DNA of 64,000 nt from Ignavibacteriales bacterium (GTDB lineage: Bacteria; Bacteroidota; Ignavibacteria; Ignavibacteriales; Ignavibacteriaceae), in contig CP054182.1 of assembly GCA_015709675.1 (NCBI GenBank), positions 2,397,448 through 2,461,447 of the forward strand, given 5' to 3'. Shown here piece by piece: positions 20,566 to 27,563 of this stretch; the first letter of the stretch is position 1; every line of letters starts with the position of its first letter. The notes below the pieces were generated by a model. It was not told the origin of the DNA, searched no databases, and was given only the letters and a program-made list of their open reading frames with translations. Position numbers and translations under genes: made by a program.

Positions 20566-21216
20566 ATGATCAAACAAATAACCTATCTTACTTTTCTTGA
20601 TGCCCTTCTGGCGGGAGATAAATTACTTTGCCAGTCAATTGTCAAGAATCTCGTTGACAATAAAATTCCTGTAGAGACAATCTATTTTGACCTTTTTCAA
20701 AAAGTTATGTATCGTATAGGAACCATGTGGGAAAAAAACCAGATTTCCATCCCCGTTGAGCATCATGCAACCCAGATCATTGATGAACTGATATCAGTTA
20801 CGCTGAATGCCAGTCAGAAGGAAGAAGGGAATGGCAAGAGATGCATTATTTCCTGTGTTGATAAAGAGTACCATCTGCTCGGTGCAAAAATGGTGTCGTA
20901 CATCTTTGAACTTAATGGCTGGGATACCATATTTTTGGGTGCAAGCACCCCCCCTAAAACCCTGGTGAACTATGTTATGGAGAAAGATCCGCATGTTGTC
21001 GGTCTTTCAAATAATTTCCACCTCAATTTTCTTCGCCTATTAGAGACCATCGAACTTATCAAGCAGGCAAGACCCAATCAGCAGATTTATCTCGGCGGGC
21101 AGGCAATAGGTCAGGTAGCCGATAAGCTTCCAAAGGAACATGAAGGAGTAAAAATCTTCCATTCAATTATGGATTTAAACAAGCATCTGAAGGAAATCTC
21201 GCTCCAGACTGCCTGA
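20566..21216 (+). CDS. Stand-alone CarH-type B12-binding protein (possible light sensor)
   Basis: The 216-residue protein has a four-helix cap domain (about 1-88) and a Rossmann-type B12-binding domain (about 90-205). Trp55, nine residues, then Glu65-His66 reproduces the W-x9-EH signature that in CarH/LitR photoreceptors places Trp over adenosylcobalamin. Glu101-Tyr-His103-Leu-Leu-Gly matches the E-x-H-x-x-G form of the cobalt-ligating motif, so His103 is the likely lower axial ligand. The usual MerR-type DNA-binding domain is absent; the protein begins directly with the cap. It may act on a partner protein, as AerR-type antirepressors do, or be an unrelated B12 sensor. An Mla-like operon starts 100 bases downstream. 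Light sensing is inference from the motifs. Confidence 0.85.
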   Translation: MIKQITYLTFLDALLAGDKLLCQSIVKNLVDNKIPVETIYFDLFQKVMYRIGTMWEKNQISIPVEHHATQIIDELISVTLNASQKEEGNGKRCIISCVDKEYHLLGAKMVSYIFELNGWDTIFLGASTPPKTLVNYVMEKDPHVVGLSNNFHLNFLRLLETIELIKQARPNQQIYLGGQAIGQVADKLPKEHEGVKIFHSIMDLNKHLKEISLQTA

Positions 21217-21315: not shown

Positions 21316-22098
21316 ATGACGGGTTTCATGGTTTCTTATTTTAAGCGAAAGGGGGATGGTCTTTTTGAGACGTTCAGATATATATTTGAAGTCTTTTCGG
21401 ACCTGGTTACCTTCCGAAAACAGACCCAGATTTCAGCAATCGTTTTCTTCCGGCAGATTCTATTCACGGGGTTTGATGCGCTAAGTATAATCGTCCTGAT
21501 CGCCGCGGCAATAGGGGGCATTATGGTAATTGAGGGGAATTCAGTTCTCCCCGGTTTTACTCAAAGCAAAATCTTTTATAATATTCTTATAAGTATAGTT
21601 TTCCGGGAGCTTAGCTGCCTGCTCACAGCGTTCATTATCGTTGCCCGCTCTGGAACTGCTATTTCTACAGAACTGGGGAATATGACTATTAATCATGAAA
21701 TTGAGGCATTGCTTTCCTTCGGGGTTTCACCCATTACGTATCTTGTAGTCCCGCGTGTTTTGGGAGTTGTGGCCGCCATGGTGATTCTCTCCATATATTT
21801 CAACGTTGCTGCCGTATTAAGCTGCTGGGCACTGAGCAGTATGTTTGTGCCGGTATCGCTCGATGATTTTCTTATGTACGTTTTTGCTGAATTAAGCATT
21901 ACTGATCTTATTTCAGGTGTTGTCAAATCAGTTGTATTCGGATTGGTCATTTCCTTAATTTCTACGTATCAGGGCTTGCAGGTTAAAATTGCCACAACCG
22001 AGGTGCCGCAAAGAACTATCAAAGCTGTGGTTCTTTCTCTAACCTGGATAATCATCCTTGATGTTTTGTTAACCATTCTGTTCTTCTTTACGGTCTGA
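21316..22098 (+). CDS. MlaE-family ABC transporter permease
   Basis: The 260-residue integral membrane protein has five or six hydrophobic segments and the MlaE signature region ARSGTAISTELGNM followed by EIEALLSFGVSP. MlaE permeases work with an MlaF-type ATPase and MCE proteins in phospholipid or hydrophobic-substrate transport between inner and outer membranes. The next gene starts two bases after the stop and encodes the ATPase-like partner, then come MCE and lipoprotein genes, forming the usual Mla-like order. The start at 21316 leaves a short N-terminal cytosolic amphipathic segment, normal for the family. Substrate unknown. Confidence 0.92.
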   Translation: MTGFMVSYFKRKGDGLFETFRYIFEVFSDLVTFRKQTQISAIVFFRQILFTGFDALSIIVLIAAAIGGIMVIEGNSVLPGFTQSKIFYNILISIVFRELSCLLTAFIIVARSGTAISTELGNMTINHEIEALLSFGVSPITYLVVPRVLGVVAAMVILSIYFNVAAVLSCWALSSMFVPVSLDDFLMYVFAELSITDLISGVVKSVVFGLVISLISTYQGLQVKIATTEVPQRTIKAVVLSLTWIIILDVLLTILFFFTV

Positions 22099-22099
22099 G

Positions 22100-22858
22100 A
22101 TGAGTCTGGTATCACTTGAAAGTGTTCATTATATTTCGGACCGGTATGAAGTAAAAGATCTGAGTATGCAGTTTGAAAAGGGGAAACTGTATGGATTTCT
22201 CGCTCCTCCTGATGAACCGGTGAATGAATTACTAAAGCTTATTTCAGGAATTGTGCAGCCGGATGAAGGAGCGGTGCGGTTTAACAATACTGACATGAAT
22301 TTAGGAACGCTTTATAATCTGAGGGAGATCAGGAAAAAGATTTCTTATATATTTGAAAGGGGATCACTGCTTGCTAATCTGTCAATTCTGGAAAATCTGC
22401 TTCTCCCGTATGATTACCACTATCCTGACGTTAGCAGAGAAGAAAAAATGGAAAATATCAGGAACTACTTCAGTTATTTTCTTCTTCCGGAATCTATTCT
22501 GGAGGAGCGCCCTGCGGTACAAAGGCAGCAGACATCAAAACTGGTCATCATCATCAGAGCACTTTTGACTTCCCCTGAATTTCTGGTGTTGGATATGCCT
22601 TTCACCGATCTTGAATTAAAAAGCAAGAAGCGCCTGCTTCGAAAACTGGCTGAATTGAAAAAGGGAGGAAACATCACCCAGTTATACTATTCAAATAGTG
22701 ATATTCTGTATGATGAATGTGATCTTTGTTACGTTTTTGAAAACGGCAAAATTATTGAAACAGGTGCGTGGGATGAACTGATTTTGTCAGATAACCCTCA
22801 GACACAAAAAATTATTAAAGACTATTTTGAGATAGAACTCGATGAAGCTGAGATATAA
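22100..22858 (+). CDS. Degenerate MlaF-type ABC ATPase subunit (predicted inactive)
   Basis: The 252-residue protein aligns end to end with ABC ATPases of the MlaF type by position and secondary-structure pattern, but the catalytic motifs are gone. The Walker A segment reads APPDEPVNELLKLISG, with no GK[ST]. The Q-loop Gln is Glu (YIFERGSLL). The signature region reads ERPAVQRQQTSK instead of LSGGMQ. Walker B reads FLVLDMPF, with Met in place of the catalytic Glu. The switch His is absent (LYYSNSD). The frame is intact and the codon use is like that of its neighbours, so it is not a decaying pseudogene. It overlaps the MCE gene start by 17 bases. It may be a structural pseudo-ATPase, or need another ATPase encoded elsewhere. 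Confidence 0.85.
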   Translation: MSLVSLESVHYISDRYEVKDLSMQFEKGKLYGFLAPPDEPVNELLKLISGIVQPDEGAVRFNNTDMNLGTLYNLREIRKKISYIFERGSLLANLSILENLLLPYDYHYPDVSREEKMENIRNYFSYFLLPESILEERPAVQRQQTSKLVIIIRALLTSPEFLVLDMPFTDLELKSKKRLLRKLAELKKGGNITQLYYSNSDILYDECDLCYVFENGKIIETGAWDELILSDNPQTQKIIKDYFEIELDEAEI

Positions 22859-23906
22859 ATACCCGCAAAGAACGGTAAAGATTTTTATCAGTGTGGCTTT
22901 GCTCATGCTGCTTTCAGGCTTGATGTTTATTATTATTCAGACCAAACTCTTTGAAACTAAAGTTGTTTTCAAAGCAAAGTTTGCAGACGCGAACGGTCTC
23001 TCCTCTACATCTCCGGTGAACTTTAAGGGATTCAAAATTGGCAATATCCGTAATTTTGAGCTCTCAAAGGATAATTATGTAATTGCGGAGTTCGAGGTTT
23101 TTGCTGAATACGCAGATAAGATCGTAGTAAATTCAGCTCTATATAAAGGAGTTAATCCTGTTACCAATACCTCTTTGATTGAATTTCTTCAGGGGGATGA
23201 AACCAGCATTCCGCTCTCACCCGGGAGCCTGATACCGGCTATTGACGTTCCTGAAGGCAGAATGCTCCTTGCTGAAAACAAAGTGACCAAATCAGGTGAT
23301 CTGATTACCTCACTCCTCCTGAATTTGCAGGAATTTACGGATGCACTGAACTCCGATAACAATCCTGATAAGGGAGCAATTTTCCGGGCGATTGTGAATC
23401 TTGCTGATGCATCAGAAGACCTGAAGGTGATAGCGGGGGAGATGAATTCATTTACCGCGGCACTTAAAAAGGATGGTAATACCGGAGACGGTGCAATTTT
23501 CCGCGCCATAAATAATGTCGCTGATCTTACTCAGGAAGTAAAAGAGATAAGTGATGTTCTGAAAAGTTCAGTTTATAAGATTGATACATTGCTTGCCCAA
23601 TACCAGAATCCTGACGGACTTGCGCAAAGAATGATTGACCCGACCGGAGAGCAGATATTCAAACCGGTTTCACAAAGTCTGAATGAGGTTAATAAACTGC
23701 TGCCAGAAGTTGAACATTTCCTCAAATTTATGAATTCCCAGACGGCAGATATTACGTATATGCTTGAAGACCTGAAAACAGTTCTGAAACAGGTACAGGT
23801 TACCTTCGAAACGGTGAATAATAGTCCGCTGATTAATCAGCCCGGGGAGGATTATATAAGAAACTTTAATTCATCTCACATCCGTTCAAAGAGTCTGCCA
23901 AAATGA
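22842..23906 (+). CDS. MCE/MlaD-family substrate-binding protein
   Basis: The 354-residue protein has an N-terminal TM helix (about 13-33) and an MCE domain at about 38-120, with FADANGLSSTSPVNFKGFKIGNI, the characteristic VxxxGxxVGxV-like region. A long helical C-terminal part (about 150-345) follows, rich in heptads (NLQEFTDALNS, INNVADLTQEVKEISDVL). MCE proteins form hexameric rings or tubes that carry lipids across the periplasm; the helical tail is typical of longer members. It overlaps the upstream ATPase-like gene and its stop overlaps the start of the lipoprotein gene, so the four genes form one tightly coupled unit. Confidence 0.92.
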   Translation: MKLRYKYPQRTVKIFISVALLMLLSGLMFIIIQTKLFETKVVFKAKFADANGLSSTSPVNFKGFKIGNIRNFELSKDNYVIAEFEVFAEYADKIVVNSALYKGVNPVTNTSLIEFLQGDETSIPLSPGSLIPAIDVPEGRMLLAENKVTKSGDLITSLLLNLQEFTDALNSDNNPDKGAIFRAIVNLADASEDLKVIAGEMNSFTAALKKDGNTGDGAIFRAINNVADLTQEVKEISDVLKSSVYKIDTLLAQYQNPDGLAQRMIDPTGEQIFKPVSQSLNEVNKLLPEVEHFLKFMNSQTADITYMLEDLKTVLKQVQVTFETVNNSPLINQPGEDYIRNFNSSHIRSKSLPK

Positions 23907-24874
23907 AAAAGCAATATTTATACCTGACGCTTTTTATTGTTTTTCTGTTCGCCGGATGTGGTGGCAGTAATGTATCCGATTTGCGTAGTCTGCAAAACAT
24001 TAAACGGGGGAATGAATATATCGGAGTTGCAGACCGGCAATTCAATGAGAATAATCTGGAAAGCGCGCTGAGGAATTTCGAAAATGCGCTTAAGGAGTTC
24101 AGTCTTATTGACTACTCTGACGGAAAAGCACGTGCCCTTAAAGGATCAGCAAGGGTTTATATTGCGCTTGGCAAACGTGATGAAGCTTCAATTCTCCTGA
24201 GCCGTCTTCAGGCAATGAAAAGTATTCTTTCCGGTGAATTGAAGTTTATGGTAACACTGGCCTTCACCGAGTATTACCGGGCATTCGGCATTTCTGATTC
24301 GCTGACCATGGTAACAGCTGAATGGAATAATTTCACTGATCCCGCTGAAAAAATGCAGCTTCTTGCGTATCATCTCATTGTAACTTCAGAGAAAGCAAGT
24401 GTTCAGAGCAGTGATCTGAATACTGCAAAAAAGCTTTTTAGCAGTTATTATGTTGAGGACCCGCTAGATCTTGAGATTGATATTCAGGCAATGTCACTGA
24501 TTGCTTATGCGGCAGCGTTTGCAGAGTTTAACATGGGGAATCTGGATGAATCGGAAAAATACTTTCAGTATTCACTTCAGTATGATAAAGCTGCAGGCAA
24601 CTATATGCAGATTGCTGACAACCTGTATTATCTGGGGATTATTGCTGAAAGACAAATGAAGTATGGAAATTCGGCAGACTACTTTAACAGAGCTTATGAA
24701 ATTTATCTTCTTCTGAATGAAAAGGAAAAGGCTGGATTAAGCAATGCTCATTATCTTTTACAGAAGTACAGGATTAGTTCAGAAAAATCTTTACTGAAAT
24801 CCGAACTTGAGAGAATAGCTGATTCTACACAGGATAAAGAACTGCAGAATAAAATAAAAGCTATTCTGAAATAA
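23903..24874 (+). CDS. TPR-containing lipoprotein of the Mla-like operon
   Basis: The 323-residue protein carries a lipoprotein signal (FLFAGC, lipid-modified Cys19). The mature part is almost all helical, with TPR-like repeats such as AEFNMGNLDESEKYFQYSLQ and LYYLGIIAERQMKYGNSADY. It starts inside the stop codon of the MCE gene (ATGA overlap). Its operon position corresponds to the lipoprotein or outer-membrane partner often found with MCE systems, so a role in the periplasmic or outer-membrane end of the transport path is likely, but the exact family was not recognised. Confidence 0.75.
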   Translation: MKKQYLYLTLFIVFLFAGCGGSNVSDLRSLQNIKRGNEYIGVADRQFNENNLESALRNFENALKEFSLIDYSDGKARALKGSARVYIALGKRDEASILLSRLQAMKSILSGELKFMVTLAFTEYYRAFGISDSLTMVTAEWNNFTDPAEKMQLLAYHLIVTSEKASVQSSDLNTAKKLFSSYYVEDPLDLEIDIQAMSLIAYAAAFAEFNMGNLDESEKYFQYSLQYDKAAGNYMQIADNLYYLGIIAERQMKYGNSADYFNRAYEIYLLLNEKEKAGLSNAHYLLQKYRISSEKSLLKSELERIADSTQDKELQNKIKAILK

Positions 24875-24894: not shown

Positions 24895-27246
24895 CTATGC
24901 AGGAATCTGCTTGGTATAGTGCTTCACTTTTTCGATGAATTCCTGGCTGTCTATTGGCTTTGCTATATAGTCGCTTGCACCTGCTTCAAGACATTTTTCT
25001 CTGTCTCCCTTCATTGCAAAAGCAGTCAGAGCAATAATCGGAGTATCTTTATACTCGGGAAGCTGCCTGATTCTTTCCGTTGCTTCAAATCCATTCATTA
25101 CCGGCATCTGCATATCCATCAGGATCAGGTCAAATATCTGTGTTTTTGCAAGTTCAAGGGCCTCGGCACCGTTCTCAACAACTGAAATGGAATTAAAATT
25201 ATTCTTTTTTAGAAGACGAGTTACTATGATCTGAGAATGTTTGTAATCTTCCACAAGAAGGATTTTCGGTTCAGTGGCAGGCTGTGCAGCTAATGCCTCC
25301 GGAGGTGTCGGCTCATCGTACCGGTTAATCATATTGTTGATCGTATCGGCAAGATCCTCAATTTTTGTTGAGCGTTTTGAAAGCAGATCAGCAAATAATC
25401 CGTCAATCTTCTTCAGGTCTTCAGCAAAATTCTCTTTGCCGGTATATATAACGATGGGGAGGTTGGCAAAGCGGGGATTTGATTTTATCAGCTTTATCAG
25501 CTCGAAACCATTAACCTCGGGCATATCCAGATCAACGATAGCCAGATCAAGATGCATATTCTTAATCCGGTCCATAACCTTCGCGGAGTAGGGTTCTGCG
25601 ATTGCGTTATATCCGACTGATTCAATAGCACCCTTGATTAAGTTAAGTGTGGGCAGGTCATCATCAACACATAAGATATTTGAATCCCGCTTGAGTTTAT
25701 AGCTGGTGAGCACCTCAACCAGGTCTTTATATTTAATCGGTTTTACAAAATACTCAACCGCACCCATCAAGAATGCTTTCTGCTGTTCTGCCTCAACCGA
25801 GCATACAATTACGGGAACATTCTTCGTGTTTTCTGATTCTCTGATCTTTTTCAGAAGTTCAAGCCCGTTTACATCGGGGAGCACAATATCCATGATAACA
25901 GCAAGGAATTTTTCATGCTTTATCATCTGAAGCGCTTTTTCTCCCGAGTTAACAATAGTCGGGTCATATCCCCATTTGTTAAGGTAGTTGCTCAGCAGTT
26001 TTGATGTTGCATAATCATCTTCAATAACCAGCACTTTGCTTTTCCCGACAGGTTTTGGAAGTGCACTTAATTTTTCTTCAAGGGAAGAACCGGCTGGTTC
26101 CATCAGAACTGAAAACTGAAGTACAAGTCCTTTGGAGGAGGTTGTCCCGATATCAAGTTGTCCGCCAAGAAGATCAATAAGCTTTTTTGCAAGGATAATG
26201 CTGAGTGCTGAGACAGGTCCCGTTTTGGTTATATTGTTTTCAAGGAAAAACAGCGGACGGGTGAAATTCACAGTTGAATGTACCGGAACGATATCACCGG
26301 TATTCAGTATTCTGAAATTAAGCCGGTTCCTGCCTTCGGAACTGATCGAAATGAGAATCTTGCCTTTAATGGTAAGAGTTTTAAACAGGTTTATAAACGT
26401 CTGCAGAACTGATTTAAGTTTCTGGGCATCGGCTTTTCCGGAATTTATGGACAGATTCTCCGTGGTAATCTCGAGTGATATATCGCGGGAATCCGATTTA
26501 TCCGCCAGGGGCTGTTTGAGTTCTTCCAGGAGTGAATCTATCTGGAATGTTGACGTATTATTGAGCAGCAGGCCCGACTCGATTTTGGATATATCAACAA
26601 TCTCATTAAGCAGATAGGATAATTTCTGGGCGCTTTCCTTTATATTAATGATATACTCGTTTTGCGATGGGGTAAGCTTTTCTTCACCCAGGAGGGAAAG
26701 GAATCCGATAATGCTGTTAACAGGAGTCCTGATTTCGCTTGATAAATTACTGATTACGCGATTCAAATCCTCATCATGATCATTGCCGCTTACGGTGAAA
26801 TAATATAAAACCTCTTCCGAAAGAAGTTTGATGCTGTCAAGTTTTTCTTTTTCAGCTTTCTGATAAGGGGATTTCTGAGAAAGTTTAAGAAGGTACCTCT
26901 GGTGGTCCGGAGCGGCGATCTGAAGAGTGATGTCGCTGCTATTTCCTTCACTGATTTTTATTTCACAAACGTGATCGGGGGTATAATCTGTCTGTTCACC
27001 GAAATTTTTAGCGCTTTTACATGAAGTACAGTTATAACTGTTGGCATGTGCAAATTTCTTAGTTGCGTTCCGTGACTTTCCGCTGAGTATAAAGGTATCA
27101 AATTTCAGGGAAAAGAGAATAGCGGAACTATACCCGAATTCCTCACAAATGAAATCGCAGTAGTGATCAGGAAAATCAGCCGGAGTGCTTCTCAGGTTCT
27201 TTAATAATTTTCCTATAATGCCTGCAGCCTGGAAATTTCCGCTCAT
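24895..27246 (-). CDS. Histidine-kinase-like protein with three receiver domains, phosphoacceptor His lost
   Basis: The chosen start gives 783 residues; an ATG at 27333 would add 29 AT-rich residues. The N-terminal region (about 1-150) is a possible GAF-like sensor with Cys30, Cys34, Cys73, Cys76 (CTSC) and Cys94. The dimerisation helix reads NLSSEIRTPVN: the usual SHEIRTP His is Ser170. The HATPase-like region (about 230-390) lacks clear G1 (ILNTGDIVP) and G2 glycines. Three receivers follow (about 402-519, 520-636, 660-776), each with acidic pocket and phosphoacceptor Asp (MDIVLPD, VDLDMPE, MDMQMPV). It therefore looks like a phospho-scaffold or pseudokinase driven by other kinases. No transmembrane segment is visible, so it is probably cytosolic. 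It is convergent with the Mla-like operon. Confidence 0.85.
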   Translation of the reverse strand: MSGNFQAAGIIGKLLKNLRSTPADFPDHYCDFICEEFGYSSAILFSLKFDTFILSGKSRNATKKFAHANSYNCTSCKSAKNFGEQTDYTPDHVCEIKISEGNSSDITLQIAAPDHQRYLLKLSQKSPYQKAEKEKLDSIKLLSEEVLYYFTVSGNDHDEDLNRVISNLSSEIRTPVNSIIGFLSLLGEEKLTPSQNEYIINIKESAQKLSYLLNEIVDISKIESGLLLNNTSTFQIDSLLEELKQPLADKSDSRDISLEITTENLSINSGKADAQKLKSVLQTFINLFKTLTIKGKILISISSEGRNRLNFRILNTGDIVPVHSTVNFTRPLFFLENNITKTGPVSALSIILAKKLIDLLGGQLDIGTTSSKGLVLQFSVLMEPAGSSLEEKLSALPKPVGKSKVLVIEDDYATSKLLSNYLNKWGYDPTIVNSGEKALQMIKHEKFLAVIMDIVLPDVNGLELLKKIRESENTKNVPVIVCSVEAEQQKAFLMGAVEYFVKPIKYKDLVEVLTSYKLKRDSNILCVDDDLPTLNLIKGAIESVGYNAIAEPYSAKVMDRIKNMHLDLAIVDLDMPEVNGFELIKLIKSNPRFANLPIVIYTGKENFAEDLKKIDGLFADLLSKRSTKIEDLADTINNMINRYDEPTPPEALAAQPATEPKILLVEDYKHSQIIVTRLLKKNNFNSISVVENGAEALELAKTQIFDLILMDMQMPVMNGFEATERIRQLPEYKDTPIIALTAFAMKGDREKCLEAGASDYIAKPIDSQEFIEKVKHYTKQIPA

Positions 27247-27563
27247 CCTGTAAACCAAGTCCAATAAATAAAAGTCATTTAAACTCAAATATATTAAATA
27301 TCCGGTACTCTTTAAATAATGAATATAAATCATATGCTAATAATAATAGCAGGTTTTAGCCGGCAGGGGGAGGGGAGGCTGTGTGACTTCCCGCTGAATC
27401 AATAAGGGCGTTGGTTTGAGACCGGATTTCTGCCGTACAATGGTGTCAAACCTCACCCGGAGGAATGGGTCTTCCGGGTATGCCCGGCCGGGTAAAATCT
27501 GAAAATTTTGCTTGGATTATTAGGGGATGATTACTATTTTGCCATAACTTAATTAAACAGGTA
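27247..27563. other. Hairpin-rich intergenic region
   Basis: This 317-bp divergent gap holds several nested inverted repeats and is locally GC-rich compared with its surroundings. GGTTTGA (27413-27419) pairs with TCAAACC (27446-27452); ACCCGGA (27455-27461) pairs with TCCGGGT (27473-27479); CCCGGCCGGG (27483-27492) is a perfect palindrome. There is no plausible ORF. On the minus strand these would lie in the leader of the three-receiver protein; on the plus strand they lie upstream of the promoter candidate at 27512. No known RNA family was recognised. Confidence 0.45.
27512..27542 (+). promoter_or_regulatory. Candidate promoter for the small secreted protein gene
   Basis: TTG (27512-27514), 20 bases, then TATTTTGC (27535-27542), 21 bases before the ATG at 27564. 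Spacing and -7 shape match the candidate upstream of the B12-binding protein gene. Confidence 0.4.

Follow-up and report, generated by a model that had tools for sequence, protein, structure and literature searches.

A motif-less MlaF-like pseudo-ATPase in an MCE/Mla-type operon of an Ignavibacteriales bacterium

The window analysed here, a stretch of 64,000 nucleotides from the single-contig genome (4.21 Mb) of an Ignavibacteriales bacterium, contains an operon in which the MlaF position of a putative MCE-type lipid transporter appears to be filled by a pseudo-ATPase (pMlaF). We consider it slightly more probable than not, at roughly 0.55, that this subunit has been kept for docking and that the MCE transporter no longer hydrolyses ATP through it. 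The same may apply to a widespread MCE clade (Ignavibacteria/Bacteroidota and Cloacimonadota, with Spirochaetes half-way), in which the motor would repeatedly have become a dead docking subunit of an ATP-independent lipid bridge between two membranes; we put this broader proposal at a little under even odds.

The operon and its MlaF-like subunit

Four head-to-tail genes occupy positions 21316–24874 of the window (+ strand). The first (21316–22098) encodes an MlaE-type permease (Pfam MlaE, E = 5.7e-56, 212 of 212 positions) that belongs to a distinct subfamily, as judged from the subfamily alignment and the coupling helix. It is followed by pMlaF (22100–22858), a long MCE protein (22842–23906; Pfam MlaD, E = 1.9e-8, 34.9 bits against a cut-off of 25.1), whose gene start overlaps the end of the pMlaF gene by 17 bases, and a TPR lipoprotein (23903–24874) with the lipobox ...FAGC, which was assigned from its Pfam TPR match, the N-termini and the gene order in relatives, where it is the usual fourth gene. 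An MlaE-family permease adjoining an MCE-domain gene identifies the operon as an MCE/Mla-type transporter by sequence, with lipid transport itself putative. An earlier note, made from the DNA alone, had described the pMlaF frame and the neighbouring MlaE, MCE and lipoprotein genes as intact, in agreement with the open frame of 252 residues between intact MlaE and MCE genes and with the Pfam matches to MlaE, MlaD and TPR.

The surroundings of the operon contain two further genes of interest. A B12-binding protein of 216 residues (20566–21216, + strand; Pfam B12-binding and gene order) is encoded on the same strand and ends 100 bases upstream of MlaE; we are unsure whether it is a member of the operon. 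It contains W-x9-EH and ExH motifs, which we take to be those of CarH-type light-sensing cobalamin modules, has no HTH domain, and its motifs are kept in relatives. About a dozen Ignavibacteria loci have this gene immediately before the operon; most Cloacimonadota and Spirochaete loci do not. Convergent with the operon is the gene for a hybrid histidine kinase that carries several receiver domains (24895–27333, − strand), and a similar large gene occupies this position in the same-genus genome L025.

The ABC_tran match of pMlaF (E = 9.8e-12) assigns it to the ABC domains, and its motifs were read by alignment to an intact MlaF of its own genome. The Walker A motif is lost, with APPDEPVN (residues 35–42, 22202–22225) replacing GKSGTGKS of the GxxGxGK[ST] consensus. 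The Q-loop glutamine is replaced by Glu86, which lies in a conserved segment (residues 83–103, 22346–22408) that is identical in a same-genus relative. An invariant Arg137-Pro138 pair precedes the lost signature, where AVQRQQTSK (residues 139–147) stands for SELSGGMRK (22508–22540, including the Arg-Pro pair). In Walker B (LMMYDEP to FLVLDMP), Asp165 is retained and the catalytic glutamate has become Met166 (22592–22597), while the switch THD reads SNS, with Asn199 in place of the histidine (22694–22696). The alignment therefore bears out the reported loss of Walker A, the Q-loop glutamine, LSGGQ, the Walker B glutamate and the switch histidine, and leaves the Walker B aspartate as the sole catalytic-motif residue. 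A pMlaF homodimer would lack both Walker A and signature, so that not even one canonical site could be formed. Against the curated MlaF equivalog NF008809, with pMlaF as the one protein scored, the result was 54.8 bits (cut-off 441), which is a weak test.

The predicted structure of pMlaF has a mean pLDDT of 94.9; its 58-sequence alignment was drawn solely from the window and its related loci. Foldseek ranks E. coli MlaF (6xgz) first, with a TM score of 0.85 and 18% identity. A second structural aligner gave a Z score of 29.1 against the 6xgz chain, tied with other ABC ATPases. Thus, pMlaF is predicted with high confidence to keep the MlaF/ABC nucleotide-binding-domain fold, with the catalytic residues gone. 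Since the fold resembles MlaF and the ATPase motifs are missing, the protein should be termed an MlaF-like pseudo-ATPase rather than an MlaF ATPase. The MCE protein was modelled as a transmembrane helix, one MCE domain, long helices (of low confidence) and a disordered tail, with no barrel.

Age, spread and selection of the motif loss

A profile of the MlaE subfamily was scanned against 84,980 species genomes, giving 152 relatives; the best 80 were retained for analysis. These come from Ignavibacteria and other Bacteroidota/Chlorobiota, Cloacimonadota and Spirochaetes. The order MlaE, MlaF-like protein, MCE protein and TPR lipoprotein is found in most of them and occurs in all three phylum groups, with noisy gene calls in some high-GC loci. 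Among these best 80, Walker A is kept in 31 of 32 spirochaete proteins and all six scored features in 10 of the 32. The non-spirochaete proteins have lost the signature without exception (47/47), Walker A in 41 cases and the catalytic glutamate in 36, so members with fully intact motifs are confined, within this set, to the distant Spirochaetes. Many of the Cloacimonadota MlaF-like proteins are short (203–220 residues). A maximum-likelihood tree of MlaE, built without motif columns, requires 6 state changes for Walker A, 2 for the signature, 8 for the glutamate and 7 for the histidine; these counts are undirected, and support is weak at several deep forks. ABC ATPases carry the catalytic motifs as an ancestral trait, and the changes are therefore naturally read as losses. 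The decay is old, graded from intact to dead, and repeated across phyla.

One spirochaete clade (L102, L110, L117, L120, L126, L142, L145, L148 and L149) combines Walker A and a near-normal signature with loss of both the catalytic glutamate (DD or DN) and the switch histidine. Proteins of this pattern would bind ATP and hardly hydrolyse it.

Closer to the window, the operon's MlaE is present in 16 genomes of the family, the window genome included. Among named relatives, an Ignavibacteriaceae MAG is the nearest (L070; MlaE identity of 92%). In the same-genus genome, pMlaF is 78% identical and dead at the same sites; the other members of the family likewise lack most or all of the motifs. Comparison of the window pMlaF with its nearest relative gave a dN/dS of ∼0.05, which is a bound only as dS is saturated, and selection was consequently estimated for a pair from the most degenerate, motif-less group (L037/L038; dS 0.375, unsaturated). 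The ratio for pMlaF in this pair is 0.047, which indicates strongly purifying selection, with values of 0.004 for MlaE, 0.018 for the MCE protein and 0.067 for the TPR lipoprotein. The loss of motifs in pMlaF is, judging from these comparisons, an old and selected feature, under strongly purifying selection in relatives. The earlier note had suggested that related strains with intact motifs would betray a recent lesion; fully intact relatives were found only in the distant Spirochaetes. A pseudogene or sequencing artefact is ruled out for practical purposes by the open frame in a one-contig genome, the recurrence of the loss in independent genomes and phyla, and the purifying selection on pMlaF.

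What remains conserved in the dead proteins was assessed with columns that are conserved in spirochaetes, comparing catalytic columns with the others. In Ignavibacteria/Bacteroidota, entropy rises by 2.09 bits at catalytic columns versus 0.62 bits elsewhere (permutation p ∼5e-5), and in Cloacimonadota by 1.97 versus 0.98 bits (p ∼3e-4); both p values are rough, since the rows are related. Structural Gly/Pro positions and the Arg-Pro pair before the former signature are kept in the dead clades, and the segment after the Q-loop is invariant (G-x4-NL-x3-EN-x3-P). By analogy with other ABC transporters, this segment would lie near the coupling helix of the permease. That helix is itself highly conserved in the subfamily as ELGNM-x3-x-E (ELGNM-x3-E-I in the window); the comparison MlaEs (n = 4, two of them from the host genome) carry EQIDA there (ELGxM-x3-EQIDA).

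Possible modes of action

The earlier note named two options for a system with such a loss of motifs: lipid transport that proceeds without hydrolysis of ATP, or transport powered by a borrowed ATPase. The age of the dead subunit and the selection on it favour the first option, although such transport is putative; the second is disfavoured, given selection on the operon's own subunit and an MlaE that is devoid of the EQ motif. A second MlaF had been proposed as a point to check, and the host genome in fact encodes two intact MlaFs elsewhere, together with a total of three MlaE and three MCE proteins. Of the two canonical sets, one forms an MlaE-MlaF-MCE operon (L043). The other appears to be dispersed over the genome, with an orphan MlaE at C1:3745923, an orphan intact MlaF at C1:692477 and an orphan MCE protein at C1:2704547.

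A borrowed motor would mean that one of the intact MlaFs (C1:1500407 or C1:692477) docks on MlaE and drives it, leaving pMlaF as a competitor, placeholder or regulator. Both the availability of these two proteins and the presence of MlaF relatives besides the dead subunit in all 20 Cloacimonadota genomes tested speak for this arrangement, for which the MceG shared among mycobacterial Mce systems offers a precedent (PMC10517005). With three MlaEs and two intact MlaFs, however, each of the other permeases can have its own ATPase, which would account for both MlaFs. MlaE likewise exceeds MlaF matches, counted irrespective of their individual motifs, by one in 16 of the 20 Cloacimonadota genomes. 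Moreover, the coupling helix lacks the EQIDA present in the genome's two other permeases. In a system of the MceG type, no ABC subunit is encoded in the operon and a shared active ATPase drives the permease; the present operon retains an ABC-fold subunit of its own, which is subject to purifying selection, and intact MlaFs are encoded elsewhere. A composite ATP site combines Walker A of one subunit with the signature of the other. A heterodimer of pMlaF and an intact MlaF was rejected as an active pair because, according to the motif table, each composite site would be one half short, and the mixed dimer cannot rebuild a canonical site. Taken together, a borrowed motor seems unlikely. A hidden ATPase partner within the locus was also considered and rejected: the upstream ABC genes in L101 and L135 look, from their sequences and neighbours, like importer ATPases of the phosphate type (PstB-like, beside Pst- and PhoU-like genes), with the phosphonate type also seen.

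Two other roles for pMlaF were considered. As a regulator, it would stand outside the working transporter, holding MlaE closed or sensing another ligand, and transport would occur only when it leaves or changes shape. Competition between mycobacterial Mce1N and the ATPase for the permease (PMC10517005) sets a precedent for regulation at that surface; yet Mce1N is not an ABC domain, and the operon position and conservation pattern of pMlaF are those of a usual ABC subunit, making this role improbable, more so than a borrowed motor. Less credible still is a cryptic ATPase that binds and uses nucleotide through non-canonical residues. Most dead members keep the Walker B aspartate (Asp165) and many spirochaete relatives have Walker A and the signature without the glutamate, but within the dead clades variation at the catalytic columns is free (2–3 bits for Walker A) and no replacement motif is conserved, so that we give this possibility very little weight.

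For the preferred reading, a docked pseudo-ATPase, we infer the following arrangement. Two copies of pMlaF would bind the MlaE dimer at its coupling helices in a structural or gating role. Lipids may then follow their own gradient through MlaE and the MCE assembly, and perhaps also the TPR lipoprotein, bridging the envelope; alternatively, the drive could come from something other than ATP hydrolysis at pMlaF. Transfer from MlaD to MlaC is spontaneous, and the opposite step likely needs ATP (PMC7790496). In E. coli, neither MlaF K47A nor E170Q complements (PMC7367683), so a passive Mla system would depart from the model system. On the basis of these two studies, the most plausible mode of a motorless system would be gradient-driven lipid flow via MlaE and a long MCE conduit.

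Known systems and implications

The operon resembles MlaFEDB of E. coli, A. baumannii and P. aeruginosa in combining an MlaE permease, an MlaF-fold subunit (6xgz being the best match) and an MCE protein. It differs in that MlaF is an active ATPase in those systems (PMC7367683), whereas this operon encodes a motif-less subunit, a long MCE protein and, after it, a TPR lipoprotein. The three-component core and long MCE protein are shared with the minimal MlaEFD with a long MlaD of Veillonella and most diderms, as described in a survey (PMC10665443). The survey also reports MlaD of the FCB group as long and without a barrel, in agreement with the MCE model here, whose helices are of low confidence. 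MlaF was identified by synteny in that survey; here, MlaF is dead and a TPR lipoprotein is part of the operon. Mycobacterial Mce1 and Mce4, which share MceG, are likewise MCE transporters that can rely on an ATPase from outside the operon (PMC10517005), but MceG is active and the Mce operons have no ABC subunit, while a dead one is present here. Exporters with a degenerate site (CFTR, TAP and TM287/288) also show a conserved loss of catalytic residues in an ABC domain. In contrast to pMlaF, the only ABC subunit of its operon and one without an intact site, these exporters keep one canonical site, and the degenerate site still binds ATP (PMC7756269). We found no description of a motif-less MlaF in the literature searched, a body that excludes most subscription journals and all bioRxiv preprints.

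The finding bears on the ATP requirement of MCE/Mla systems and on the direction of lipid flow to which such a requirement would apply. It represents a natural removal of the ATPase with the rest of the system kept, and provides intact, half-decayed and dead versions for direct comparison. Assignment of an MlaF by synteny or by an ABC-domain match is no evidence of an energised transporter.
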